From: Diphasiastrum complanatum
Taxonomy: Eukaryota > Streptophyta > Lycopodiopsida > Lycopodiales > Lycopodiaceae
Direction: 5' to 3'
NCBI GenBank assembly: GCA_029204225.1
Contig: CM055112.1
Coordinates: 26,563,864 to 26,627,863, forward strand
Length of the DNA stretch: 64,000 nt
In this document: positions 890 to 64,000 of the stretch, piece by piece
Position numbering within the stretch: the stretch's first letter is position 1
Layout of the letters: the number at the start of each line of letters is the position of its first letter
Notes under the pieces: model-generated
The model's database searches: none
Told to the model about the DNA's origin: nothing
What the model saw: the letters and a program-made list of their open reading frames with translations, nothing else
Translations under genes and position numbers: made by a program

Positions 890-1849
890 AACTCCAAAAG
901 ATTTGGAGTCATTGAACTTCAAATAGTTTGAGACATCCACCTTTATTTCTCATTCGTCTCACATAGACGTAAGCCACTTTCTTATAGACACCCTTGAGAA
1001 AGATTATGACATCAATAATGTAGACACAAAGAAACTGAGATAGACTTTTATTGGTTCCCATTTTTCTGTACATAAAGACACTTCTGATGTACAATCTAGG
1101 GACTTGTTCGATATGTCAAAATACTATGTCAATAATGATGTATATATTACTACTACAGACCTATGTAATTTTTTTGAATATCGTGAAGAAGAAATATTAT
1201 GTCTCCTATCTAGCACCGTTTTGAAATTCTTGAATATCACAACTTTTGAGACTAGTCATGATATGGTGCATGGTATCGAATATGAAAAAGATGAAGAATT
1301 TCTTAGTGGTGATATATTGCTTGTCTTCATAAAGCCCAATATATTTTTTTTTCTTATTTTGAAATTACATGTAATGTTGAATTCTTTATAAACATGGTTA
1401 CTTGATACCTCTTCCCGATGTATGCGAACTACTCTTATTATAGATGAATTTAATGTTCATTGAGGAAGTATCGAAAAGCACTGAAACTCATTCCATGGGG
1501 ACAATGAACTGGGCCATTACCTCAAGCATTTATAAATAAAATAAAATATGTAAGTTCAATCCAATTGGGGAGACATTGATTATGGTCGTAAAGGCATTGT
1601 CACATTACTTAGGAGGGCATAAGTTTATTAGAGCAAATATATCCATTTTCATTCAGAGATCTCATGTTTTGAATATTTTAGGCTATGGACAAGAGAATGT
1701 TTCTATCTTGTTATTCATTATATGGTTCATATATACAATTAAATGGTAATCAAGACAATCCTCATCTCCTAGATCCATTTTCAAGTAGAGAATTTTGTCA
1801 TGATAACACAACAATTGGACATGATGAGAATTCTGATGAACTAAAATGA
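890..1849 (+). pseudogene. M2-family gene, decayed copy C
   Basis: This is a degenerate copy of the unknown family called M2 here. The piece at 1104-1391 contains a tyrosine/asparagine-rich stretch and FFEYREEEILCLL, matching LGLREDEML in copy A and LILREDEILSIF in copy B. After a gap, 1499-1849 carries GHYLKHL, then VVKALSHYLGGHKF (copy B: AIKSLSICLGGHKY), then NILGYGQENVS (copy B: KIFGYTPNETT), and ends in LLDPFSSREFCHDNT (copy B: FLDPYERRLFLHDNT) with a TGA at 1847. At least one stop and one frameshift interrupt it. The 107-bp non-matching part at about 1391-1497 may hold the intron seen in copies A and B. No known domain is recognised. Homology to copies A and B is seen in the sequence; function is unknown. 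Confidence 0.6.
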
Positions 1850-3040: not shown

Positions 3041-3732
3041 TGTTATGTCCATGTCCAATATGTGGGATTCAGCATAATTTGGCATGGATAGCCGGTACTC
3101 TAGTGTATAGGTTGTTAGTTAAGCCACGTCATTCTGGGCTTGGCCGATAATGTAATTAATAATCTTATGAGGGTCCATGTACTCCAATTGGACCTATGGA
3201 GATTTTGCATGGCGTTTGATGGCTTTTATGTCTATTTTCTTATTTTAACCATGCATTTTGATTTGTACAAGTCATGAGCAGATTGAGACCCAACCTCATG
3301 ATGACACTTGGCATGCCTCTACTTGACTAGCCTTTTCCAGTTTCACATTGCTTTGAGAAACAAGCTATTCTAAAGCACGAATTGGCTAATGCATTAGGGC
3401 CCTTTTTGGACTCAAAAAGGGCCTCTTCACTAATTATAATTAGTGTTAATGACGACACGTGTCCCAATAAAATATTGACAACTGAGAGGGAATGGTCCAT
3501 ATGACATGGCAAATTCAATGGTGCAGATTAAATCAAGCGTGGGCCCACAAAGTACACCTCTAACATTAACCCTAGATAAAGCAATAACTATGCCTACAAG
3601 TTAACATCAACTAGCCTGTCTATCTACTAGCAGCCATATCCTCTAAGTGAGCCTAGTCCTTATTTCAAATTTTGAATGTTCACAAGCTTGTATCTCTCAT
3701 CTCTCTCTCATTTTGTAGTCTCTCTCTAAACG

Positions 3733-3794
<62 letters not shown>

Positions 3795-4255
3795 GTATAC
3801 TCCACAAATATTCTATTTTTTTTTTATTTTGGTTCACCTTATCTGAAGATCTACACACTATTTCGCATATCCTACAATATCATTACATCATCCATTATGG
3901 CCTCTACTCAATCAAGGAAGCCCAAGAATCAACTAGCTTCCATTGTTGCACACATCAAAGTCCTAACTAGATGGATGCAAACACATCACAACCAACTGGA
4001 TGATGCATTTGACGGTCTAATTGCTTAGTATTAATAGCTATTCATATTCTACATCTCAAGGATGAAGATCAATCATCAAGTATTCAGTAGTTAGCGTTCT
4101 CTCTCAAGTTTGCGAGCTTGGACACTCTTGAGCATTCTAGCTAATTTCGTTAGAGTTGATTAGAGATTGCTATTGCGCTTACTGCTTATTAGCATTGTGC
4201 TTGATTCAGACTTATTTTTAGTCGCTCAGAGATAGCTTAGAGTACGCCCCATACA
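3041..4255 (+). repeat. 3' LTR of chromodomain gypsy element
   Basis: The LTR starts TGTTATGTCC directly after the polypurine tract and probably ends at the CA of CCCATACA. No second LTR is present, so the right end is approximate. It includes a long CT tract at 3735-3789. A short ORF at 3897-4028 (MASTQSRKPKN...) lies within the LTR and is probably not a gene. A 38-bp stretch at about 3391-3428 recurs inverted at about 12436-12473. Confidence 0.6.
3735..3789 (+). repeat. (CT)n microsatellite
   Basis: About 55 bp of uninterrupted CT dinucleotides inside the gypsy LTR. Confidence 0.9.
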
Positions 4256-4572
4256 TTTTCAACTTTTGACTGAGTTTACATGCAACCATCGGGCAAAGGA
4301 ACTCACAAGGTTGCAAAGAGGAAGTGAAACAACCAAGACTACCATTGGAAAGGAAGGATCCACGAATTCAAGATCGACCAAAACGGCGAAAACCTTGCAA
4401 ATGTGCAACACGTATACATGCGTCGAGATATTTTATTGGATGTGGTTGTTGCTGATAGAACCATGCAGTCACATTGTAGGTCTCACCTCTTTTATTCTTG
4501 TGTTAACTATTATGTTTGAATTATTATTATGTCATTGTTATGGATAATAATGTTGCATTAATGCCTGGTGCA

Positions 4573-5355
4573 GATGTCTTTCCTTCAAATAGCTTCGACT
4601 GGCAAAACGTGAAGTCCTTCACTGGAAAATTCTCCGCCATACACGCCAAATATGGAGAACTAATATATGGTGGGTTGGCATCATCTGCCCTGATCAAAAT
4701 GGGCATTTTCTTTTACGATCACATGTACGAAGTTCCAAAAAAAAACTTTGGCCAAGGCAAATTAGCACCAATTTCTGAGCCTGCGATCGATTCTCACGAG
4801 TGGCCATATGTTGACTAACTGACTATTGAATTAACGCAGAGGCAACTTCTCAAAGAGATTACTAGTAATATGAAGCCAACATTCGAATCCAAACGAGTCT
4901 ACACTAGCATCTCTGTGCCAATCACCGTATTTGTTGCCATATTTAAGGTGGTCCCCTTTAGAAAAACAAACACGATGTGGGCATGGAAAGCAACAGAATC
5001 ATCACTATTGGATAACATATTTGTCGCATGAGATTCAAAGGAAATGGAGCATAAAGGAGATTTAATAAGGTGTAAGCTCTTTTGTGAAACAATGACCATA
5101 AGGTATCATATTTCACGTCAAACATGCTCCTTAAGTTTCATCTATAGGTGATATAAGTTTGGTCATGGCCGATGGGACCCTCTGGATGCGGAGACGAATC
5201 AACAAGAAGTGGAGATATCCATACATTTGCCCCATGATGAAATACGAGAAATTCAAATAAATAAGGAGTGCAGCCTAGAAGATCTTCGGCATATGCTTGG
5301 ATTGACTTTTGTTGATGTGCCAATAGATTTTGTCTTTACTCGTAATGGACAAAAT
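4573..5355 (+). pseudogene. Unrecognised cluster-A exon (P3)
   Basis: A single plus-strand frame runs from about 4573 to a good splice donor (AAT followed by GTGAGT at 5356). It encodes about 260 residues, broken only by TAA at 4816, TGA at 5029 and TGA at 5149. Visible segments include FDWQNVKSFTGKFSAIHAKY, a Gly/Ala-rich GELIYGGLASSALIKMG, and near the end CSLEDLRHMLGLTF and DFVFTRNGQNV. A possible acceptor (GCCTGGTGCAG) precedes ATGTCTTTCC. No family is recognised. The same frame persists across the stops with no frameshift, which argues for a recently functional coding exon. It sits just upstream of the H3-like gene on the same strand and may be part of the same element. Confidence 0.45.
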
Positions 5356-5840
5356 GTGAGTCCCTAATTTCCATCAGATTCCTGAATTTTAAATAGTAAT
5401 GTTGAGTAAATATAGGATTATTAACTTTGTGTTTGGTTTTGCATATACGGAGACGAGCCAAAAAAGATCATGAATGTGTTTCATTTTTACAAACAGGGAC
5501 ATTAGGAGTCCAATGGGAATAAAGGATTTAATCTAATGAAAAATAGAAAACACAATTAGTTGGTTGCGTTTTGACTCTATTCTAAAATATTTGGTTATGT
5601 TTTGACTTTAATTTTGCGTTGTCACATTTTATATGCCTGTTACTACATTTGTGGATGTCCAAGGTTGAACCTTGTTAAGGTTTAAATCGTTTAGTGATAT
5701 GCATTTTAATACTATTACTGGTTTTCTTTGAAGGTTTCCGCTAACTGGCAATTAGGATTTTCACTCATGAGCATAGACAAGAACATACTATATTTGAAAA
5801 AGAGGCCAAAACTTTTATAGGGGAACTTACTAGAAATAAA
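5356..5840 (+). other. Intron or spacer upstream of H3-like gene
   Basis: AT-rich non-coding DNA after a GTGAGT donor. I could not identify the matching acceptor or downstream exon. Confidence 0.3.
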
Positions 5841-5849
5841 ACCCTTCAC

Positions 5850-5878
5850 TATATAAGGGTGCTTGGGTCTTCATTTCT
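5850..5878 (+). promoter_or_regulatory. TATA box and shared motif of H3-like gene
   Basis: TATATAAGGGTG is followed by GGGTCTTCATTT, about 130 bp before the H3-like start codon. Nearly the same arrangement (TATATAAGAGTG, then GGGGTTTTCATTT) precedes the M2 gene of the same cluster at 9241-9267 on the other strand. The shared sequence downstream of the TATA box is more than chance TATA similarity would give. Confidence 0.6.
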
Positions 5879-5983
5879 CCACTTCATCCCTTGAGTGTCA
5901 GAGTGTCAGTTTTTTTAAATTCTCTGTTTTTCATCTCTCGTGTTCTCTGATACGTTTTCAAAGGCTAACCAATGTTGGAGGAA

Positions 5984-7219
5984 ATGACACGGACGAAACA
6001 AACGGCTAGAGATCCCAGAGTGACTGCATTGCTCCATAGGGATGCACTAGCCACCCTCGATGAGAGAGAGAGACGGGAGAGCAGAAGCAGGAGTAGGAGT
6101 CGCAGCCCTATAGCGTCTCGGGAAGATCCGGCCACTCAGTGTGAAGCTGAGGAGGACATGGCCCATACAGCAGCTACACAGGAGGACCAGACTGAGCAGC
6201 AGTAGCAAGAAGACCAGCAGCAGCAGGAGGACCAGCAGCAGCAACAACCACCATGAGAAAGAAGCCCTCTCCCGACGGCAACTGAGCGGGAGGAAACAAT
6301 GAAGTTCCTAGATGAGGAGCTTGCGGCATCGGGTGAGTTGCCGGTTCTGAATGATTCTTTCTTCGACCCATTTCCACCAGCAATGGGCATGGACACATCA
6401 AATTTAGGCATATTGGGGGACACCACACCCACCGTGTCACCTCCAAGTCACGGCCCGGTGATGGGTCCGATGATGTCGTTGTTGGTGGGTGGTTCTGATG
6501 AGGGCACTCCGATGTCGCACACAACAAGGATGAAGCAGAAGGCGATCCATAGATGGTCAGAGAGAGGAGCACACGAGCGAAAGAGAAAGAATCCTCGCAA
6601 GGCAGGCTCTACATGAAAGCGACGGAACCTTGCAGCTCAGCAGCCATCACCACTGCCCACACCGCCAACATCGCCTCCACCACCTCCACCTCCACTGCCT
6701 CCGCCCCCACCACTTCCACCACCTCCTCCACCAACACCTCCACCACCACCACCTCCACCACCTCCACCACCACCACCTCCACCTCCACCACCTCCACCGC
6801 CTCCAAGTTCTGCCGTAGTTGGCCCAAGTAGGACCGTAGAGCGTGGCAAGGGTAGGCCGGCCCCTCGTGCAGCACCATGGGCTGGAAAGGAGCTCCGCAG
6901 GATGCAGCCACCACCTCATCGATTGCGTAGAAAGCGCAGGATCGCAAAGTGGCTCCAGGATATACAGAGCTATCAGAAGTCCGTAAAATTTTTGATCCCT
7001 AGGGCCCCTTTTGTGAGGCTTGTAAAAGAAATAGTCGATGAATTTTCCTTGGGGAACAGAGTTACGGCAGATGCGGTGTCTGCAATACAAGAGTCTGCGG
7101 AAATATACCTAATGCAGCTCTTTGAGGACTCATTTTTGTGTGCAGTGCACGGGAAGAGAGTCACAATACTCCCAAAGGATCTCCACCTAGCTAGAAGGCT
7201 AAGGAGAGAGCGCAATTAA
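5984..7219 (+). pseudogene. Divergent histone H3-like gene, copy A
   Basis: One frame of 412 codons encodes a histone H3-type protein. The second ATG of the frame is chosen because the protein then opens MTRTKQTAR, the canonical H3 tail start with Ala1 replaced by Thr and Lys9 by Asp. A tail of about 300 residues follows: an Arg-Ser repeat, a Gln-rich part, a Met/Pro part and a long polyproline run (coding 6660-6805). The C-terminal 105 residues are a complete H3 fold: SYQKSVKFLIPRAPFVRLVKEI (alpha-N and alpha-1), AVSAIQESAEIYLMQLFED (alpha-2), then HGKRVTILPKDLHLARRLR (loop 2 and alpha-3). Normal H3 is about 136 residues. Three in-frame stops, TAG 6203, TGA 6254 and TGA 6614, interrupt the frame with no frameshift; splicing around the first two cannot be excluded. 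It converges on the M2 gene. H3 homology is clear; its role is not known. Confidence 0.85.
6660..6805 (+). repeat. CCACCT-type polyproline-coding repeat
   Basis: Low-complexity CCA/CCT/CCG triplets encode an almost pure proline run within the H3-like tail. The long Gly, His or Val/Glu frames on other registers and strands here are shadows of this repeat. Confidence 0.85.
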
Positions 7220-7334
7220 AAATATCATGTACATGATTTTATTTATGATATACTGAAGATTTGGTGTCAAGTATCTTGCAGAATTTCAGATTATGTGAAT
7301 GCAAATTGTTGTGATTGAGTTTAATATCTGATTT

Positions 7335-7425
7335 CAGTATTGTTTATGTGAATGCTGTCATTTGAAAATTTTAGTACCATCTATGTGAATGCAGTGATTT
7401 AAAATTTTCAGTACTATGGAAATGG
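7335..7425. repeat. Short imperfect duplication
   Basis: A unit of roughly 45 bp around TATGTGAATGC and ATTTGAAAATTTTAGTAC occurs two to three times in the spacer between the convergent H3-like and M2 genes. Confidence 0.5.
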
Positions 7426-7467
7426 TAGTTTCTTTAACCATGTTGTAGCTAAGATAGGTTTCCATGT

Positions 7468-7561
7468 CGTGGCATGAAAATCACGCCAGGGCGCGACCAG
7501 GGGCCGTTTGACCTGGTCAAATGGGCCCTGGTCGCGCCCTGGTGTGAAAATCACGCCACGG
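7468..7561. repeat. GC-rich 94-bp hairpin
   Basis: Two arms of about 38 bp containing CAGGGCGCGACCAGGG and TGAAAATCACGCC are inverted copies. The centre, TTTGACC-T-GGTCAAA, continues the palindrome, so the whole unit can fold back. It lies in the 470-bp spacer between the convergent 3' ends of the H3-like and M2 genes. It could be a small foldback transposon or an element-encoded structure. Confidence 0.8.
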
Positions 7562-7685
7562 AAAAAAGAAAAGAAATCTTTATTAGAAAAAAAATTTAAA
7601 TTCTAAATTCAATGAATAAGCACATCATATAATTACAACAGAGAATTAGGAGAGTCCTCAAGAAAAAAAATGACAAAATCTTTAT

Positions 7686-9135
7686 TCACATTTGATCCAT
7701 TTCCTTCAGAGAGGACTTCAGCTTCTCTGATCGCTTCTCTGATGACAGTACTGGTTTTAACATTTCTAATGCTAATTTAGGAGCATCTCCCTCATCCTCA
7801 TAAGGGTCGATTAAACCCGAGAGAATGAGCCAGGTCTCGAATCCAGGGCAGAAATCATTCAAAATGGCTTTTCGGAGGACACAGTAAGCCTTTGGCGTTG
7901 ACGGTGACAAGTCCACCTCACCAATGTGCTTGAGAGTGCTTTGCATTTAAGAAGCTCTGTCGGTCCATCTGGGCTGTACTTGTTGCTGAAGCAGAAAATA
8001 AAGTTGTTGGGCAAGTTCCCAATGTAGTGGGCCATAGACCTGTCCAGAGTTCCTGCTTCAACTTTCTTCCGAACGCCACCCCTTCGCATTGCAAATGCAT
8101 CAAGCTCCATTGCGTCCTACATTTGGTTCAAATTATTGCAAAATGAGTATAATGAAGACAAACAAACATAACAAACACACACAAGTTGAATTGTTGGGTC
8201 AGACTTGCCTCGGTCCCTTCATCAATGTCTTCGGTTTGCGCAAGGTCAATTCCTTTGCCTTTGTACTTCACGTCAGCAGTTTTCCCTTCGAGTACCTTGA
8301 ATGGCCTCGTTTGAACTGGTGGTGGTTGAAGCATTTTCAATTGACAAAGCACTCTTGCCAGTGCTTGCTCGGTGGTGTCCGTGTCATGCCCGATCAGCTT
8401 CTCATACGTGTCGTCGGGCTGGGTGTGGTCGAAAGTGAAACTGCCATTCTACAAATTTACCAATGCTGTCAACATCTCATCTTCTCGCAAGCCGAGAATA
8501 TGTTGCAAGTCATGTATGAACACATACTCCTTTCCATCAATGATGATTGGAGCAAGGCCATGTATTCGAAGCACGACATCATCGGACTCATCTATATCTT
8601 TTGGCTCCGCTGATGTGGATGCACTTATTGCCTCTTGCTCTGCAGATAAATCTTCCTCTTCACCTAGGTCGTTCATCTCGTTCACCTGCTCACTAGGATT
8701 GTGTTTGTTGCTAGCCACAGTCGCTGGAAATTCATTAAGCAAAAAAATAACAGTAATCTCACCGGATAGAAACTTCTTTCCTACACTTTTAAGATCAAAA
8801 GTTTTCAGCTGATCCTTGGTCAGCTCCAAGTAATGATCGTTACCCAAGTGACTAATAAATCTGTTGAGACGAGCGATAAAGGGTCTATCTCCTTTTCATA
8901 TATAACTAAGCAAGTTATATGGAATCCACATGATAGTGGAGCCAGGAATTTGTAGGGCATAAGGCTTCAAAGTTTCATCTATATACTCACTCACGTACGT
9001 GAATGCATCTGTATTAGCCCGTAGAGTGGCAAGCGTGTCTATTCTACCGGTAAACATACAATAAATACGATCTAACTAATCTAAAAACTCTGTGGGGGCT
9101 AGCAGATTGGCCAACTCTATTTTAGAGGACGACAT
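7686..9135 (-). pseudogene. M2-family gene, copy A
   Basis: Exon 1 (9135-8209) is one frame starting MSSSKIELANLL. It has in-frame stops TAG 9076-9078, TGA 8896-8898 and TAG 8449-8451. Exon 2 (8116-7686) begins DAMELDAFAMRRGGVR and has one frameshift near 7930. The intervening 92 bp look like a GC-AG intron (GAG then GCAAGT at 8208, acceptor at 8117). Conserved blocks with copy B are an N-terminal helical region, FLSGEITVIFLLNEF, DLQHILGLREDEML, an acidic linker, DAF.MR.GGVR and the C-terminal LIDPYEDE. A basic patch (KVLEGKTADVKYKGKG) precedes the intron. No known domain, signal peptide or membrane segment is seen. A TATA box precedes it and it is convergent to the H3-like gene. Function is unknown. 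Confidence 0.65.
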
Positions 9136-9240
9136 TGTTATGCAACTAAGAACACTAATTGACCAGCAAACTAGTAGTCTAATTGAACAAGACAAGCTAA
9201 ATTACGAGGAAAGAAATTTCAACAAAGCAAGAAGTGACAA

Positions 9241-9267
9241 CAAAATGAAAACCCCCACTCTTATATA
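9241..9267 (-). promoter_or_regulatory. TATA box and shared motif of M2-A
   Basis: On the minus strand TATATAAGAGTGGGGG is followed by TTTTCATTT, about 125 bp before the M2-A start codon and 120 bp after the stop of the M3-A gene. The motif closely matches the promoter of the H3-like gene at 5850. Confidence 0.6.
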
Positions 9268-9381
9268 GAGGGACGTGTTTTCAAAAATAGATAAACAATT
9301 TTTATTTATAACAACAATCCAGTTCGACAGTATTATTTATCACAAAGGAATATTCGAATTACAATTCAACATGAATTGTTT

Positions 9382-12108
9382 CTATTCCATCTCATCAGTT
9401 TCCGTAGCTTCTCTAGCGCTGTTTTCCAAAACATTGGATGTTGGTGTCCTCGGCATCCATCTCTTTCCAACTCGGACTCTAGACATCCTCCATTCTTGAT
9501 GCCTTGTTCTAGCATTAAAGGATTGCCATGCTGTCTTTCTGACTGAATTTGAATTGGGGATCATTGAACACAACTCTTCAGTTCTTGTGTTTTGAAAGTG
9601 TCCTCGGCCCAAAACTCCTCTGTAAAACCATTGGAATATCTCAACCAATGCATTGCTACGACCGTTTCCTCCGCCATGCTGTGAATTTTTGAAATATGTA
9701 GCCTTTGCCCTGTAATGACTCTTTTCCATGCCTTGCGTATTCCAAATAGTTAATGATCCATAGGTTTTCATAAACCAAGGTCCATGAGCATAGAAGATGT
9801 GCTATTAATAGAAATTTCATATTAATTTAAATCTTTACAAATACATAAATACAAAAGTAAAAAATATGAGACACACATACCATATAGTGAGTTATGTGTG
9901 TTTCTCTCCATGCATCGATCATCAATTCAGTAATAATTTGACTTCTCTTGCGTATCTATCCAAATCTTCATCTTTCACAATTTTTTTGTTGATAGTTTGT
10001 GACAAGACATTAAATGCTTGCCAAACCTTAGCACATGTACTTGCCATGCGAGGATCTGAGCCAATATTTGTTGTGCATTGACATATTTTCTTCCAGTACT
10101 CCCATTCAACACTGTTTTTACGTGCAGTATGATTTGACAATAGGTGTCTCGCTTTTGCACCACCCATTGAAACTTTTGCTGGAAGATCTTGCGTTTTTCC
10201 ACTCATCTCAACGTCTTTGGTAAGACTCACGTGGCCCCCGTGCAATCCCATATCGGATAAAATTATCTCTAGATTTTTAATGCTAACATCTGCTCTTGAT
10301 TTGGGCTGCATGTTCCATGCGCAACAACAATGCGAAAATAATAATTTGTCCAGTATTCGTAATTCACCAAGCATTGTGCAAAAATGGACTCTTTCGAGAG
10401 GAATGTTCAGCACAAGTTTCCAGGCTTTGTCTAGATTGTGCCTATTTGGTGCAAGACGTTGGTTGCAATTCAAAATGCTTTTGTTCTGCCCAGATTCAAA
10501 CATATCATATATACAAAAATTCGTTGCATTTGCACCGAGACCACAATCGTACATGCATTTCAAAGTCTTCAAATCAGCAGCTAGGTGCCATTCTACAGCA
10601 AAGCTTTCTCCTTCAACATTGAGCAATTTGCCTTCATTTTGTGCATGTATTATCTTAGATATACTGCATTTTTCAAATAGCCACTCCAGTACGTCGTGAG
10701 ACTCCTTAGGAACTTCAAATGCAGCTATCCACCATATGTGATTTTCGGATTGCACGCTAAATTCTTTACAATAACTTCCGCCAAACTGTTGCAATTCACG
10801 TATCATCAAGGTGATTGTGACATGTTCAAGTTTATGCCCTTTTACGATTTCTGCTTCGTCCAACTTAATAACAAATATAACTTTACCTCTGCAAATCTGT
10901 AAAACAGAAATTTCATTACAAAAACATATTAGTTGAAGAAAAGCATACAATTGAAAACCGAAATCCACAATAAATGTTCTTACCATTTGTTCTAACTTCG
11001 TAATGTCGGATCATTATCGCTTGGACCTTTTCCAGATCTAAGAATATATTATTGCCTTGATGATAATTGTTTTGTCGGAGGTCCTTTCTTCTTATTGGTT
11101 ACTGTAAAAGAATCCTCAATATGTTGAAACTCTCCTAATTCAGAGAGCAAAATCGAATTGCATTCTCGTTTGGCGGATTCAACAAGTTTATAAGTAGGTA
11201 TTATTTGATGGCGTTTTAACCCAATTTTGTCAGAGCGTTTCATATATTTCTTCAAAGCTCTATACCCCTTGCGACTCACACCTCCTTGGTCACATGCGTA
11301 CACTATCTCTTTAACATTTGGATTTGGCTTGAACTTGTCGACTAGCTTTTTTGCAATTCTCAAGTGAATTGAATCACTTGTTTCATCTTCCACAATCTTA
11401 ATCAAATCTTTACCCTTCAAAAAATGTTTCATATATTTTTCGGCAATAAAATCTTTTCCAACCGTCTTTCTCAAGAACTCTTTTGTGTCCCTCATACGTC
11501 TTTTACTGGCACCACCACCTGGTGCCAAAGCTTCTAGTTTGTGTCTCTTAGGGTTTTCATTTTCTGCTTGCTGATCCATCGAGACTCTACGCTTTCGTTG
11601 TAAGCCATATATTGTCCTCTGAAATATACTGATTGAAGATTGCAATTCTTCAATTTTTGCGATAGAACTGGCAAGCTCTATTTTCAAACCATTTATCTCT
11701 TGCTCCAATTTCATATTTATTCCATGCAATGACTTTAAATTGTCATTCATACTCAAGATACGAATGAATGTCGTATTTGCCAATGTCTCAGCTTGGATTC
11801 TTCGAGAATCCATTGCTTGACAATAGCCAAGCAGTCCATTCCGACCATCTCCAACGAACCTTAACAAACTATGTACATTAGAAAATTTAGGAGGAGCATC
11901 TACCAGTGGATTATGAGGGTATAAATCACCTCTTACCCATAGGTCAATATGTTTTTTTCCTTCTAATCTCTAACAATGCATGTCATACGGATTTAAGTTA
12001 ACACCCCATGCAGCTTTGGTGGTCGCATAATCCTTCTCTAACTTCACATGTAAGTGATACATGTAAGTGAATTTCCCAAAAGAATCTATGTAGAACATTA
12101 CAATATAC
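9382..12108 (-). pseudogene. M3-family transposase-like gene, copy A
   Basis: A large protein of unknown family. The frame is visible from about 12108 (MFYIDSFGKFTYMY) through LWVRGDLYPHNPLVDAPPKF, a coiled-coil part (about 11810-11600), a basic part (KRRMRDTKEFLRK) and a helical domain. Then come VIKLDEAEIVKGHKLEHV, SVQSENHIWWIAAF, WHLAADLKTLKCMY with a zinc-knuckle-like region reduced to CIYD, an H/C-rich helical part, GGAKARHLLSNHT and, after an intron, LTIWNTQGMEKSHYRAKATY. Probable GT-AG introns lie at 9802-9880 and 10897-10983; the frame is not perfectly kept across the second. TAG 11970-11972 and a frameshift near 11070 interrupt it. The spaced acidic residues (D, then AD, then E/H) with a Cys motif after the second Asp resemble DDE/RNase-H-fold recombinases. 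That is inference. It lies tail-to-head upstream of M2-A. Confidence 0.6.
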
Positions 12109-13344
12109 CTTAATCAAATGGTGTCAAAGCTCAATGTGAACTAACAATGATATAAGCTTTATTAGGCATATACTAGTTTCCATCCCTAGGGTCCTATTGT
12201 AGTTAGGACAATGAAAGGTCGTCCTATACTAACCCTACTCTAGTTGTAATTTGTAACTTACCTATTACTTGCCTATTATAGTCTATGCAAATAACCTACA
12301 ATAGTCTATGAAAAGGAGACCTACATTTAGGCCTTAACTCTTGCTCACCTTGTATGGTAACCCAAGGTAAAGGTGCCATGTAGGATTGATTAGCACTAAA
12401 TTAATTATGATTAGAAAACTTGTTTAGGCAAGGAAGAGGCCCTTTTTGAGTCCAAAAAGGGCCCTAATGCAAATGTGATCTGCATATGTACATCAAAATG
12501 TATGTTCAAGATCCATTTTAGGGTTCTTCTATTTGTGTTAGTACTTTCATCATTCATGCAATAGTGCAAGTGCTCTTGTCAAACATTGTGTCATATGTGT
12601 TTATGCAATCACTTGGGTTGTAGATACTTCAAAGTAGATGAATGTTTTTCATTTTCTTTCACATTTATTACCCTGCACATTTATATCCTTAAATGAAAGC
12701 ATAATTTTTCTAGTACATTTGATGTTCCACATTCTAAACATGGAGTGTAGATATGATATATATGTCCGTCCTTTCAAAATATCCTCCATTGTTAATTAAG
12801 ATTCTTCACCCACAAATATACATCTTCAAAATTTACCTTTAAGATTAATCACCTGTATACTTTAGAGTTCAATGTATTAACTAAAACACTCAAACCTTAT
12901 GGTTATGTCATATTTCAAAATATCACTACGTATATTCCCTCCCTATGGCATATAGGTTTTCCTTGTCAAGGAAAAATTCAAATGTCACCTGTTAGGATCT
13001 CATCACATTCAGTCATTAATTCTACTAATGCTTTGCTAAGATGCTCCTTCTCAATAGTTTCCATATCCAATTGTTCATGTAGTAATGACACATGTTGTTG
13101 CACGCTTTGTACTACTTGGGAGACTTGACCACTGGCATCCATCAAACTTTTTTGTAATTGTTGTGCATAGGATCCCAGGTTGCCTCTGTTTCCTAGTTCT
13201 ATTCTAACTCCTTCTGAGTAACCCTTTCATGTTATTGTGCCACTTCCAATTCTTTTTTGACCTTTTGCAGCTCTTGGGCCTACATTGTCCCTTTTGAATT
13301 GAGTTTGTAGATGCAAGCTGACATGTTTGTTTTTCTTGCAGCAA
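12109..13344. other. Non-coding, LTR-like scraps
   Basis: No gene is seen. About 12436-12473 is an inverted copy of a segment of the gypsy LTR at 3391-3428, around GGCCCTTTTTGAGTCC, so at least part is old LTR debris on the minus strand. The rest is AT-rich and unassigned. Confidence 0.4.
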
Positions 13345-22979: not shown

Positions 22980-23800
22980 GTTGTTAAGTGACTTTTAACT
23001 CAAACGAAATAAACACGTCAATTAAGCACATGGTCGACTATCCACACTGCCAAGAAGCTTTTATTCATACGTTTGTGAAGGAGTTTGGTTGCGCCATATC
23101 ACTAGCGGGAGGAGGAAAAGAGGATAAATTTTGGTTGAGCATGGTGTTCCCTCCAAAAATCTTTGAAAGCATTTGAAAGGTAGATTATATAACATCCATT
23201 GCTATTGCTTAATGATCTACATGCTTGTTGACGTTTTGTGTGAATCATTTTTCTCATTACATGATTTAGTTTGTCCAATTTTGAAATAATGGAAAAGTTT
23301 GATCTTCATATTGTACCACCAAAGCTAGTGAGAGTAATGAGACCTATAAGAAAGAATTACAAAATATTTGAAGGAGAAGTCCATGGAAACTTAATATTGG
23401 CTATTAAACTTGATGAGTCTGAAATTGTTAAGGGACAAAAATTGGAATGGGTAAATATCATCTTTATGAACAAAGCATTAAAAAATATTGAAAATGTTGC
23501 AGAGGATTCATCATTTAGTGTTCAATCAGAGAATGAAATATGGTGGTTAGCAGCATTTTAGGTATATTTCAATTTTATTTATTATTGTTTACCAGAATGC
23601 TATGATTTTTTTATCCCCTAAGTTTGCTAATGTCAATGTTCAGGTTTTAAAAGAAGACCATGCTATCTTGTCGTGGATTTTTTCGACAACAACTTATGCG
23701 AAGATTATTGAAGAGCACATGGGTGGAAACAAAATATTTGTGCCAAACTATGGCACGTTTCAAATTTTATGGCATCTTGCAAGTGATTAAAAAACACTGA
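22980..23800 (+). pseudogene. M3-family transposase-like gene fragment, copy E
   Basis: Three pieces of the M3 family lie in order. 23271-23561 gives ILAIKLDESEIVKGQKLEWV, then FSVQSENEIWWLAAF. A short interval with a plausible intron (donor after AGCATTTTAG, acceptor AATGTTCAG) follows. 23645-23790 gives LKEDHAILSWIFSTTTYAKI and FQILWHLASD, where the frame stops just at the position of the second conserved Asp. The upstream ORF at 22988-23176 may belong to it but has no visible match in the other copies. The 3' half (Cys motif and the C-terminal block) is missing. Confidence 0.6.
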
Positions 23801-58722: not shown

Positions 58723-59119
58723 CTATATATGAAAAACAAGCCGGGATGGTTGATTTTGCTTTTGTTTTCTCCTCTCAAAATCTTGTTTAGGAGGAGAGGA
58801 AGGAGCAGGTCTAAAGTACTCTGCAAATTTGTCATATGTGTCCCGTAGCCTGAACACAATGTTGAAATCCTTAAGCATGATGGTCACCCTTTTGGCATGG
58901 ACAGCTGCAACAATAGTATCTGAAAACAATTTCACTTGGAAATCTTCATATGCAGTGTGCAACGCCTCTATTGCCGTTACAGTCCATCTCACAACTTTTT
59001 GTAACCTGTCTGATGGATCTCTGTATGTGAGCTTTCGGAATCAGAAGATTATTGGTCTTCTCTAGCTTCCGAATATCCTTGAGCCAAGGTGGGTCTCTTC
59101 TCCAATGCCCCTTGGCCTT
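58723..59119 (-). pseudogene. Divergent histone H3-like gene, copy B
   Basis: The minus-strand sequence encodes an H3-like histone fold: WLKDIRKLEKTNNLLIPKAH (alpha-N and start of alpha-1), QRSIRQVTKSC, then after one frameshift near 58992 TVTAIEALHTAYEDFQVKLF (alpha-2), AAVHAKRVTIMLKDF (loop 2, very close to H3 HAKRVTIMPKD) and NIVFRLR (alpha-3). A C-terminal extension of about 40 residues, basic and Pro-rich, is absent from normal H3. It shares LLIP(K/R)A and VTA with copy A, against LLIRKLP in canonical H3, so the two copies are related to each other. The N-terminal tail is not visible. Confidence 0.7.
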
Positions 59120-60565
59120 TCAAAAAGATACTTTTTATATTTTTCAACGCGCATATACTGCATGTGAAAACCTGAGAGGCTATTCTCGCGCATTGAACTG
59201 ATATTAGAAGATAATATGAATGATCAAAGCTTGACTCAATAAATTCTCCTTAGCTTTGGACAATATGAAGAGTCTATCGAATCAAGCTTTGATCATGCAA
59301 AATACCTGTTGGAGGGTTTGCGGATCCCAAGGCAACCCTAACCCTAGTTAATAAGTGAGGGGGATTTGGCACCCTGCGTGTGTAAGTCCAACCCAATGAT
59401 CACATAGTTATTTGATTAATTAGAATGTTAATAAAAGGACTTTAGGCCTTTTTGCGGGACTTTTAATGTCGCAGGGCCTAAATGTCAAGTTAGTGAATAA
59501 AGTTGGGTTTCCCTCCAATTTTGATGGTTCCCACACTTTTTTAAATTTGGATAAAAAGATAGACAAGATTGGACCAACAGGATTCAGAGGCCAGGGTCCT
59601 CCTCTCTACTATAAAAAGAGACCAACTCGAGTTGGTCCTCATGTTCATTTTCTCATTTTAATAAAGCAGATTGGTTCTCTTAAAAAATGGATTGATGAAT
59701 GTCCTTGCTCTCCTTTCTTCTCCTCCATTTCTCATGTTTTCTTTGGATTTTGCTAATTGTTGGATTTGATCATTATTGGGATTGCTATTTCTTATGCTTT
59801 TTGTGAGAGAGAAAGGGAGAGAGAGAAGAGTAAGTTTCTATCATTGTTGTGGATTTAGGGTTAATGGATGTAGTGTTAATGCTTAGTGTTAATGGATGTT
59901 AGTGTTAGATCCTCCATTCATGTTGAAATCTGAACTGTACTATCGCTCTCATGGGAACAAACCTACGCGTGACAACTAACTTCGTCTCTTTGATGCTAAA
60001 TTGACTAGATCTTGGATTCAGGTTAGACAAGGAAAGAAACCCACTACAATACCCTCCAATAATTTCAAAAAATCTCCAAAATTTTTTTTCCTACAATAGC
60101 GATTTGACGTGCGCAGTCCAAGTGAAAAATCATTGTCTTCTCCAACGGCACGCTGATCCGATATCTGAGACGCATTGAAAATATATTGAAACGCATTATG
60201 AACACCTTATGAAAATGTTCTGAATGAACATTATTTCAAAAGAAAAAATCTCGTCTTTACGGTGCTTAAATAAGACGAGAGTCTGTAATAATTCTCCTCG
60301 TACACATTTTTCGATATTATTCATTTAATATTTATTTATTATTTGTTTAATGGTGATTCAAGGCTAGTGATGGACTATTCAATGAATTACGGCGCAGGTA
60401 TAGATTCTAGGATCAGGGCTAATGATAATTCGTAGAATCTAGTGATAGACTACTTAATGTATTCCGGCGTAGGTACAAATTTGTCTCACTATGATTGGTG
60501 GATAAATATAGGTTGTGTTCCTCAATTCATTATTTGACAAATGTATGGCTGTGATCAGCAAAAAT
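59120..60565. other. Intergenic DNA with a tandem duplication
   Basis: No gene is supported. A unit of about 100 bp (CTAGTGATGGACTATTCAAT, then CGGCGCAGGTA) is duplicated at 60365-60475 with mismatches. The ORF at 59466-59756 lacks support. Confidence 0.4.
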
Positions 60566-60569
60566 TGGC

Positions 60570-60578
60570 TATAAATAT
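60570..60578 (+). promoter_or_regulatory. TATA box of M2-B
   Basis: CTATAAATATGGGC lies about 285 bp before the M2-B start codon. Confidence 0.4.
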
Positions 60579-60854
60579 GGGCACCACTTTCCATAATTCG
60601 ATTCCGTGATCTTTTATTCTGAACTCACTAGTTATTTTATTTTCTTTCTTTCTTGCGATATCGAATCGACGCGTGCCTTCCCATACGATGCACGATCGGA
60701 TTCATTCAGGTGTGCTAAATCGATATCATCATCTTCTGATGTGTGCTTGTGAAAAATTTCAGTCGTGTCCTAACGGTATTGGATCAATGCGCGCACTGTT
60801 GTTCATTCCTCTACTGATATCATTTGGTCGCGTTGAACCGATATCAGGTTTAAT

Positions 60855-62380
60855 ATGGCTAGTTCCTCCATGTCCTCAAATAACAAACTTCTGGATTTTT
60901 TGAATGCTAATGACATTCCATTTGAGAAATTAGAGTATTTTGTGAGAATTTTTTTGCTCCCTTCGATATCGATAAGCTAATTTATGAAAATCGTTATAAT
61001 TTATTTTCTTATCTTGATCATTTTTCTCAGATTATTAGTACTCTTGTTTTGGATATAAATAGTTTTTGTTTCGTTCATTTTCAGGATCTTGTGCATTCTA
61101 AACCATCTTCTAAGCATAAACACAATAGAAATTACTCTAACCTGCATGACCATTTCAAAAGAAATATATATTGTGATATCCACAAAAGAATATGTCGCCT
61201 TCTCATCAAAGGAATGGCTTTTGTCTTTTACATATCTGCTGAAATTCCAGATGATGAATCTGTTAAATCTTCAACTGTTCCATTGATCGAAGCATCTGCA
61301 CCTGTTCCAATTGATGTAGATGATGCAGATACTGATAGCATCTATGGCTTCATATTATCAAAAAACTCTCCCGCGTTCTATAATCCTCTTTGATTCTCTT
61401 CCATCTGCATCTCATGTTAATCAATTAACTCTACTCAATGTTCCCTTATATTTTATAAATAATGAAAGTTATATTTCATTTAATGATATAGAATATGTTT
61501 TGATTTTGAGAGAGGATGAAATCCTCTCAATTTTTGCTCAAAATTTATCAGAATTTTCTGGCATTGTTGATTACACATATGATGACCTTGAAATTGAGAT
61601 AGATTATGATAAAGATGGCAATTGAAAATCTGGCAATGAGGCCTTGGAGGTCATGATTGAAAAATCTAAAGCCTATGAAAAAACTTTGCCTACAGAAGAG
61701 GAATTTTTGGAATTCCAAAAAAAATATCCCCCAAGGCCTAGATATATTTCCTCCAGAAATGTAGAGGCCATTGGAGGACATGACATTAGTAGAGCAAACA
61801 TCGTTGAATATAATGATTATAATCCGGTACGTAAATATTATATTGGTATTGATATTGCTTAGTTTTCTTATTTCAAACACTGCGTTAAAGTATGAGTTTA
61901 CAGTGTTATGTATCATTCTAAATTTTTTTTTTTTTTTGTACAAGATGCTATTGAAATAGATGCCTTTGGTATGAGACATGGAGGCGTCCGAGGTGTATCA
62001 GTCGGGAGAAAGGATGTGTCTGTATCTCATTATTTGAAAAAATTTCAAAATAATGAGATTTGTATATATCATTCATCTTTTAATCCATATGCAACCACTG
62101 TCATTATGGCCATCAAATCATTATCAATTTGTTTAGGAGGCCATAAGTACGCAAAAGGAACATATAAAATAATTTTTGTAAAAGGGATTTGGCTATTAAA
62201 ATATTCGGTTATACTCCCAATGAGACTACAAAAAGATCATCTGCAATGGCCCTTTATTTGGGTTACATTGATATGAGCAAAAGGAAAAATTTAGAATTTT
62301 TGGATCCATATGAAAGGAGATTATTCCTTCATGACAATACCATTCGTCTGAATCTTGAAGAGGATGATGGTGATAAATAG
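60855..62380 (+). pseudogene. M2-family gene, copy B
   Basis: Begins MASSSMSSNNKLLDFL, parallel to MSSSKIELANLL of copy A. After a frameshift near 60950 it continues FDIDKLIYENRYNLFSYLDH and KEYVAFSSKEWLLSFTYLLK. In further frames come LYFINNESYISFNDIEYVL and ILREDEILSIF. TGA at 61623 interrupts it, then LEFQKKYPPRPRYI. An intron (61827-61944, donor GTACGT, T-rich acceptor) precedes DAIEIDAFGMRHGGVRGV, SHYLKKFQNN, IKSLSICLGGHKYAKG and FLDPYERRLFLHDNTI. There are at least three frame breaks. No known domain. The intron sits at the same position as in copy A (before DAxExDAF.MR.GGVR), so the copies share gene structure. It converges on M3-B, 30 bp away. Confidence 0.65.
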
Positions 62381-62409
62381 ACAATCTTTTGTAATAGATT
62401 TTTGATATA

Positions 62410-64000
62410 TTACAAGGATCTCTCTTTTGTTATGAATTTGAATGCCTTTCGAAATATCGTAATACTTGGCAAGTTTTTAGCTTGATATCTAAATTGTGCT
62501 CTTCTATAAAACCACTGAAAAAGTTGAACTAAATATTTATTTCTTGAATTGTGTCCTACATGATTTGTTGCTCTATGAAATGCTCCCCTTGCTTGCCAAT
62601 GAGATTTTTCTATGTCTTGTGATGACCAGATACTTAAGCTCTCATATTCCTTTGAAAAATAAGTTGCATGATGAAGAAGGATGTGTTGCAAACAATAGTT
62701 TTGATTAGTTACATCAGTAGAAAAAATATAAGCCTGAATGAGAAAAGTACCAGATAATGATATAGATTAGCAGCATGTAAAGAGTAACGTTGTCTTTTCC
62801 CCAACAATCATGTACAAATTTTACAAATGTGGAGCAATGATTTTGCAAAGTCCTCATGTCTTCTGATGATAGGTTTTCTTTCTTGATAACACCTATGAGT
62901 TTGTCTAAGTTGGTCCACACTTGTTCCTTTTCCACTCGATTACTTCCTTCCAGTGTTCGTGTGACTTGAACAATTTCTCTCCAAATTTCGTATCTGACAC
63001 TTGATTCTTTGCATGTGTGATTGGATAAGAATCTTCTTGCTTTAGCACCTCCAATTGATGGGTTATTAGGAACGTTTCCTTTTTTCTCGGAAAGTCTATC
63101 ACTTTTTTCAATCATGGCATTCCCTTTATGTAGTCCTGCATTTGACAGAACTATTTTCAACCTCCTAATTGTTGCTTTAGCCACAGACTCCGGTTTATGA
63201 TTCCATGCTAGTAGAATATGTAGGTAAATAAGTTTTTCAATAATACGAACATCATCATGCAATGTGCATATGTGAACATTTTTTAATGGAATTGGCAGAA
63301 CACTTTTCATATTTGGATCTTTAGCTTCTCGTGTTGGGCCAGTGTTTGTTGATTGTCCCGAATTCATATTGTAGCAATCCTTCATGCAATAAAGACATGG
63401 ATGCTTTGATGTTGCCCCATGAGAAACATTATACATACATTTTAATGTTTTCAAATCCCCTGCAAGGTGCCATTGAATTTGAAAACTTCCATGGTTTTCA
63501 ACTGTAAATTTCTCACCCTCCAATGTCACTTTATAATCTCGCCATAATTTGTTCTTGAAAATATCCATGTAAGCATTTTATGGTCCTCTTTCAAGAGCTG
63601 TAGAGAAGCAAGTAATGCATGACATGTCAATAAAACTGGCAAGGTATAAATTGTTAATAACGACATTCTAAATGAAAATTGAAATGTATACCTGGAATGC
63701 CGCCAACCACCATATGTGATTTTTCGATTGAACACTAAATCTTCGATCATTTGTATATGAAATTTTGTTCATCAAAGTGACACTCACTTGTTCCAACTTT
63801 TGACCCTTGATGATTTCAGATTCATCCAATTTTATTACAATAATGATCTTTCCATCTACTTGATGTTCGTCTAGTTTATAAAATCGAATAATGTATTTTA
63901 GAACATTTTCAATTTCAAGAAAAATATAATTGCAATCGTTGTAATTGAGCTCACCATATTCTAATTTGTATAATTCAGTTATATGAAGTGGTTGGCCAAC
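62410..64000 (-). pseudogene. M3-family transposase-like gene, copy B (partial)
   Basis: Runs off the right edge. In order: NYIFLEIENVLKYIIRFYKL, IIIVIKLDESEIIKGQKLEQ, RRFSVQSKNHIWWLAAF, intron 63598-63691 (CAG then GTATAC; acceptor CTCTACAG), LLKEDHKMLTWIFS, then after a frameshift HLAGDLKTLKCMYN with CLYC 19 residues after the Asp, KNVHICTLHDDVRIIEKLIY, LLAWNHKPES, LSNAGLHKGNAM, GGAKARRFLSNHT, and a final exon SLSIWSSQDIEKSHWQARGA with KYLVQLFQWFYRR. Two conserved Asp residues, an intact C-x2-C and a late Glu/His block suggest an RNase-H-fold recombinase with a zinc-binding insertion. That is inference; no family name is assigned. This is the best-preserved copy in the C-terminal half. Confidence 0.65.

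Follow-up and report, generated by a model that had tools for sequence, protein, structure and literature searches.

A ~9-kb DNA transposon of Diphasiastrum complanatum with a RAG1-type transposase and an H3-like histone gene

A gene cluster, designated cluster A, lies within a 64,000-nucleotide stretch of the Diphasiastrum complanatum genome (assembly GCA_029204225.1, contig CM055112.1, positions 26,563,864 to 26,627,863 of the forward strand; hereafter the window) and is almost certainly a copy of a ~9-kb cut-and-paste DNA transposon with a RAG1-type transposase, termed here transposon A. The P3 exon, H3-like histone gene, convergent M2 gene and M3 gene that a preliminary description of the sequence had placed in the cluster were all present, and P3 is the fourth gene of the transposon. 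The explanation that best covers the data as a whole, which we consider likely, is that M3 is the RAG1-type transposase of a cut-and-paste element, that the histone is a working H3 that resists silencing, and that M2 and P3 are accessory. The copy in the window is decayed. Its features, enclosed by terminal inverted repeats (TIRs), are as follows (positions are those of the window; L numbers denote sampled loci):

3392 to 12469: whole transposon A, 9,078 bp, with identical inverted ends; ends fixed by copy comparison and empty sites
3392 to 3428, + strand: left TIR, CATTAGGGCCCTTTTTGG..., from identical-end match and copy comparison; self-folding hairpin with a 12-bp stem
4573 to 5364, + strand: P3 exon; three stops in the window copy; the copy in L015 was examined
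5984 to 7219, + strand: H3-like gene of 411 codons in a single exon; starts M-TRTKQTAR; poly-P present in a long inner insert; fold of H3
9135 to 7689, - strand: M2, whole
8200 to 9135, - strand: M2 exon 1; three stops in the window copy; open in L010, L015, L016, L017 and L020
7689 to 8116, - strand: M2 exon 2; frameshift in the window copy
about 11957 to 9382, - strand: M3, whole
11049 to 11957, - strand: M3 exon 1; coiled-coil-like N-terminal part
9881 to 11010, - strand: M3 exon 2 frame; first two predicted catalytic Asp residues and C(2)C, with its second Cys altered in the window copy; frameshift near the end
9802 to 9880, - strand: M3 intron, GT..AG; equal position in M3-B and P0051
9382 to 9801, - strand: M3 last exon; H(4)H and predicted catalytic Glu (RAG1 numbering used)
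12433 to 12469, - strand: right TIR, the same 37 bp as the left TIR and likewise self-folding with a 12-bp stem

The preliminary description had proposed a single mobile carrier and had suggested that outer boundaries and inverted repeats be sought around the gene set. Perfect inverted repeats of 37 bp were found to enclose P3, the H3-like gene, M2 and M3, and the carrier proved to be TIR-bounded, dispersed and present in many copies with the same gene set. The sampled copies were alike from CATTA inward and different outside it, giving termini of CATTA..TAATG, with CATTAGG at the start. A 39-bp TIR beginning TGCATTA was rejected, the ends of other copies being CATTA. Across the 1.74-Gb genome, the TIR core gave 867 + 837 = 1,704 matches with at most two mismatches, and a reversed-pattern control gave 0 + 0. 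Three copies of 1.0-1.1 kb (L029, L030 and L031) have the same ends as A and no detected gene; these are likely to be nonautonomous derivatives, and such copies may contribute to the 1,704 matches. At L033, two TIR ends point away from each other.

To define the gene content of the family, the best 40 of 852 candidates from a genome search with M3 were scored, the window's own copy included; matches at 95-100% identity lay on many contigs. Twenty of the other 39 matches were sampled, plus five stretches from the TIR list; L009, L013 and L019 were left out because their flanks are those of the window, L012 and L017, respectively, and L032 and the window were added to give 19 compared loci. Genes covering at least 80% of the protein were present at 15 (P3), 15 (H3), 17 (M2) and 16 (M3) of these. 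All four genes occurred together at 12 of the 19, and within a detectable TIR pair at eight. The pairs L009/window (3.4-12.5 kb), L012/L013 and L017/L019 have both flanks in common, one pair lying ~140 kb apart on contig C21, which indicates that whole segments were duplicated. Mutations are also held in common by L011 and L014 and by L015 and L016, which may be further duplicates.

Target duplications enclosing the gene set, a further expectation for a mobile carrier, were looked for and not found. Fourteen of the 17 loci given to the test had a usable TIR pair, that of L012 being placed one base off. Flank matches at the CATTA/TAATG boundary measured 1 bp in five insertions, 2 bp in none, 3 bp in one and 4-10 bp in none, and thus showed no duplication beyond chance in the 14; the empty sites were exact. 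For L029, the best 40 of 3758 candidates span the joined flanks; in the five L029 empty sites aligned, the sequence is uninterrupted at the joint, with four gaps per alignment row and none within 20 letters on either side. All four L022 empty sites are continuous across the joint, three of them gapless and the fourth having one gap, away from the joint. The empty site of the window's copy, which reads TAATG|CA in four of five long terminal repeat (LTR) copies and GAATG|GA in one, is weaker in that the right flank lacks ~40 bp present in those LTRs. The joints include ATAAT/AATGT and CAATC/GACAG. Both TA and TAATG were rejected as target duplications, since the empty sites lack CATTA and the flank is present once. 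Given that the empty sites are continuous across the joints, insertion was precise and left no target duplication in the cases compared (three empty-site tests, one of them the weaker).

The suggestion that M3 is a recombinase was borne out by fold and motifs, which identify it as a RAG1-type DDE transposase. All seven significant PDB matches to the predicted fold, modelled without the last exon, were RAG1, ProtoRAG or Transib; the lists cover solved structures and leave room for superfamilies that have none. The predicted DDE triad consists of the Asp residues of KLDE and GDLK, which stand in RNase H order in the model, and a Glu in the last exon. The C(2)C motif reads CIYC or CLYC in the M3 family, its second Cys being lost in the window's M3-A, and H-x4-H is present in M3-A, M3-B and P0051. 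The last His pair and the Glu are spaced as in RAG1, at ~13% identity. Two relatives of M3 came from the ferns Ceratopteris and Adiantum; none was confirmed in viral contigs or in prokaryote genomes. The frame of exon 1 (11049-11969) continues upstream to a likely splice site, and an additional exon may precede it at the 5' end of M3. About 250 bp separate the M3 stop from the start codon of M2, which lies downstream.

The 3' part of the H3-like gene matches PF00125 (Histone) at E 9e-29, and its best PDB match is H3.1 (E 2.5e-27). A centromeric H3 (CENP-A) was considered and rejected: the best 60 of 173 PDB matches are named H3 or histone domain, and none CENP-A. The tail could be read at 17 of the 19 loci and resembles the canonical form (MARTKQTAR), most copies having residues 1-8 intact; 16 tails open with MA and that of the window with MT. 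K4, Q5 and R8 are kept in all 17 tails and K9 is absent from all 17, position 9 being D in 15 and G in two. The stops in the window copy (TAG at 6203, TGA at 6254, TGA at 6614) would fit C-to-T decay. Stops in the copies of A lie at differing positions, some common to a few copies, and the H3 of L025 aligned over query residues 1-385 without a stop; the H3 frame of the active ancestor was therefore probably open. Five long H3 proteins were found, none with the tail and insert of the transposon histone when compared by eye.

The two remaining genes are taken as putative accessory factors. P3 has a weak PB1-like end (E 0.19). No RAG2L-like Kelch partner was recognised: M2 has no Pfam match, its predicted structure has a pLDDT of 33, and none of 1185 candidates was a relative at E 1e-3.

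The histone also occurs in diverged relatives of the transposon, subfamilies B and C. Those features that lie in the window are as follows:

58726 to 64000: cluster B, with H3-like at 59107-58726 (- strand), M2 at 60855-62377 (+ strand) and M3 (- strand) from 62500 to ~64.9 kb, beyond the window
1008 to 1840, + strand: decayed M2 fragment, 53-62% like the subfamily C M2 in its 3' part
23301 to 23799, + strand: decayed M3 fragment

Recurrence of the H3-like, M2 and M3 families in cluster B, as first described, was thus seen for all three; the further copies of M2 and M3 reported nearby are present as fragments, M2 alone at ~1.0-1.84 kb and M3 alone at 23.3-23.8 kb. About 430 bp before the latter, a 15-mer at 22859-22873 matches the outer TIR end at 14 of 15 positions and is perhaps a remnant TIR end. 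Subfamily B comprises M3, M2 and H3, and subfamily C comprises M3, M2, H3 and P3. At G000:C18:3942658-3972537 (L028, L035 and L036), a 5.8-kb copy of A is nested in the M3 of subfamily C, and L036 has a further decayed M3 at its far end. Independent occurrence of the families with no common boundaries, the outcome named as contrary to a single carrier, was not seen at the sampled loci, where copies of A and subfamily C have all four genes and B has three; common boundaries were found for A only. Read in reverse, A has M3 and M2 forward followed by H3 and P3 reverse, so that the H3-like and M2 genes converge; B and C have M3 forward, M2 reverse and H3 forward, followed in C by P3 reverse.

Over aligned stretches, protein identity between A and C is 45% for M3, 50% for H3, 35% for M2 and 33% for P3, and between A and B 41% for M3, 43% for H3 (47 codons) and 40% for M2. 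These comparisons gave pS of 0.77-0.89 and pN of 0.38-0.49, with synonymous sites saturated. In a nine-row tree, the A, B and C histones fall together across a branch with support of 89/86 and 88% of 200 bootstraps, H3-B having a long branch. The C tail reads MDRRKQTRRD and has also lost K9; the long inner insert is a feature of A, and B and C have a C-terminal extension. Given that H3 is found in diverged subfamilies at transposase-like divergence with saturated synonymous sites, the histone looks long-kept rather than a recent passenger. Elsewhere in the window, direct repeats of 91-100% identity (39.5-42.3 with 48.6-51.2 kb, and 25.5-26.7 with 32.5-33.7 kb; spacings ~9.0-9.3, 4.5 and 7.0 kb) are probably LTR elements and their LTRs.

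As judged by its fold and motifs and by the termini of the element, M3 would have a D-D-E active site of RAG1 type, which a C(2)C/H(4)H zinc site would brace; it would cut at the CATTA termini and make a blunt join between element and target. The transposon histone, as a working gene, would enter chromatin, where its tail would still accept K4 methylation and could not take the silencing K9 methylation. Plants silence transposons through H3K9 methylation. The histone is probably a selected gene of the element. Since K4 is kept, K9 is lost and the histone is conserved, an anti-silencing role through the loss of K9 suggests itself, for which we would allow close to an even chance. The fuller proposal, of a long-kept plant lineage of RAG1-type transposons under selection, with its own H3 (K4 kept, K9 removed), hard-to-silence chromatin and blunt, duplication-free insertion, is advanced tentatively.

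Several observations weigh against this interpretation. The TIRs of B and C and the tail of H3-B were searched for and not found, and R2 of the tail is kept in just 11 of 17 copies. Within subfamily A, the H3 fold has a dN/dS of 0.48, against 0.59 in an intergenic control and 0.70-0.85 in M3, a measure that is not informative within this subfamily. With a profile of M3 exon 2, nothing in the PDB reached E 10, and the last-exon profile ranked RAG1 (E 1.2) second, after an immunity protein that is unrelated; given that both profile searches were weak or empty, the sequence-level claim for RAG1 rests on pairwise shuffles.

A working H3 could act otherwise, either sequestering histone chaperones or proteins that read H3K4, as a decoy or dominant negative, or offering a docking tail to bring in the transposase complex. 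RAG2 reads H3K4me3, and the invariant K4, Q5 and R8, the long insert in A and the RAG1-type transposase would suit such a role; however, family scans recognised no reader domain in M2 or P3, and K9 is lost in A and C, so that we regard it as rather unlikely. It is less probable still that H3 was captured (transduplication) and multiplied by the transposon as a passenger without function, as in fungal hATs. Capture of H3 by transposons is documented (PMC6710886, in the portion available) and no selection signal is seen within A, whereas the occurrence of H3 in three diverged subfamilies, its transposase-like divergence at saturated synonymous sites, the tree grouping and the kept tail all argue against a passenger. 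That M3, M2, H3 and P3 are neighbouring host families amplified as segmental or satellite-like copies, as the true duplications with common flanks at L009, L013 and L019 might suggest, is contradicted by the exact empty sites, the identical TIRs at different flanks and the short copies (1.0-1.1 kb) that have these ends too, and is scarcely credible. Some large DNA viruses carry histones, and a multi-gene cargo that includes one would suit the term "virus-like" of the preliminary description; the scanned genes match no viral Pfam family, no relative was confirmed in viral contigs, and the transposon-type ends and short nonautonomous copies leave an endogenous or virus-like element with a negligible probability.

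The preferred reading, of a transposon with a selected histone of its own, can be compared with several known systems. A DNA transposon of ~9.5 kb that carries H3 is found among fungal hATs, those of Pseudocercospora and relatives having captured host H3 recently; according to the available text (PMC6710886), these differ from A in their 8-bp duplications, none being found in A, and in copies that are mostly truncated and RIP-mutated. Fungal DNA transposons that carry TET/JBP (PMC12730594, as far as its accessible text goes) likewise bear epigenetic cargo thought to counter silencing, in their case an enzyme and not a histone. Transposons with chromatin enzymes are known, and a long-kept histone, if true, would be another way against silencing, for which K9 lost with K4 kept makes a direct, testable prediction. 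Among the literature matches listed (open-licence papers), none was seen to describe a histone gene as a standing component of a plant DNA transposon, or a CMCT element that inserts without duplication; transposon histones of other plant genomes may be annotated as host genes. Duplication-free insertion is shared with Spy, which differs in its PHIS transposase and its preference for AAATTT, the joints of A not lying within AAATTT (PMC4482050, in the portion available).

The CMCT clade comprises CACTA, Chapaev, Transib, RAG1 and Lanisha and, in the text available (PMC12730594), has C(2)C and H(3-4)H between the second D and the E, mostly CA..TG ends and 2-5 bp duplications; the same source counts Lanisha (Maumus, McDaniel, Carey 2020, Repbase Reports) as a CMCT lineage. 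M3 and Lanisha, the latter known here by citation alone, may be the same lineage. The authors of Lanisha reportedly work on mosses. With a DDE transposase, C(2)C and H(4)H between the second D and the E, and CA..TG ends, transposon A fits the clade except for the target duplication; its cargo of H3, M2 and P3 is a further difference. The RSS heptamer-like ends of RAG/RAGL and Transib are CACWGTG. Transposon A resembles these systems in its transposase fold and in the way the last His pair and the Glu are spaced, and the M3 and M2 genes of B and C are convergent, like RAG1L and RAG2L; by contrast, A lacks the 5-bp duplication, has ends of CATTAGG and stands at ~13% identity. Given that 39 Transib-like proteins have been reported in plants (PMC9435367, in the part available), the presence of such a transposase in a plant is by itself no novelty. 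That a RAG1-type enzyme is here combined with duplication-free insertion and occurs in many copies in a plant is relevant to the diversification of the RAG, Transib and CACTA enzymes.

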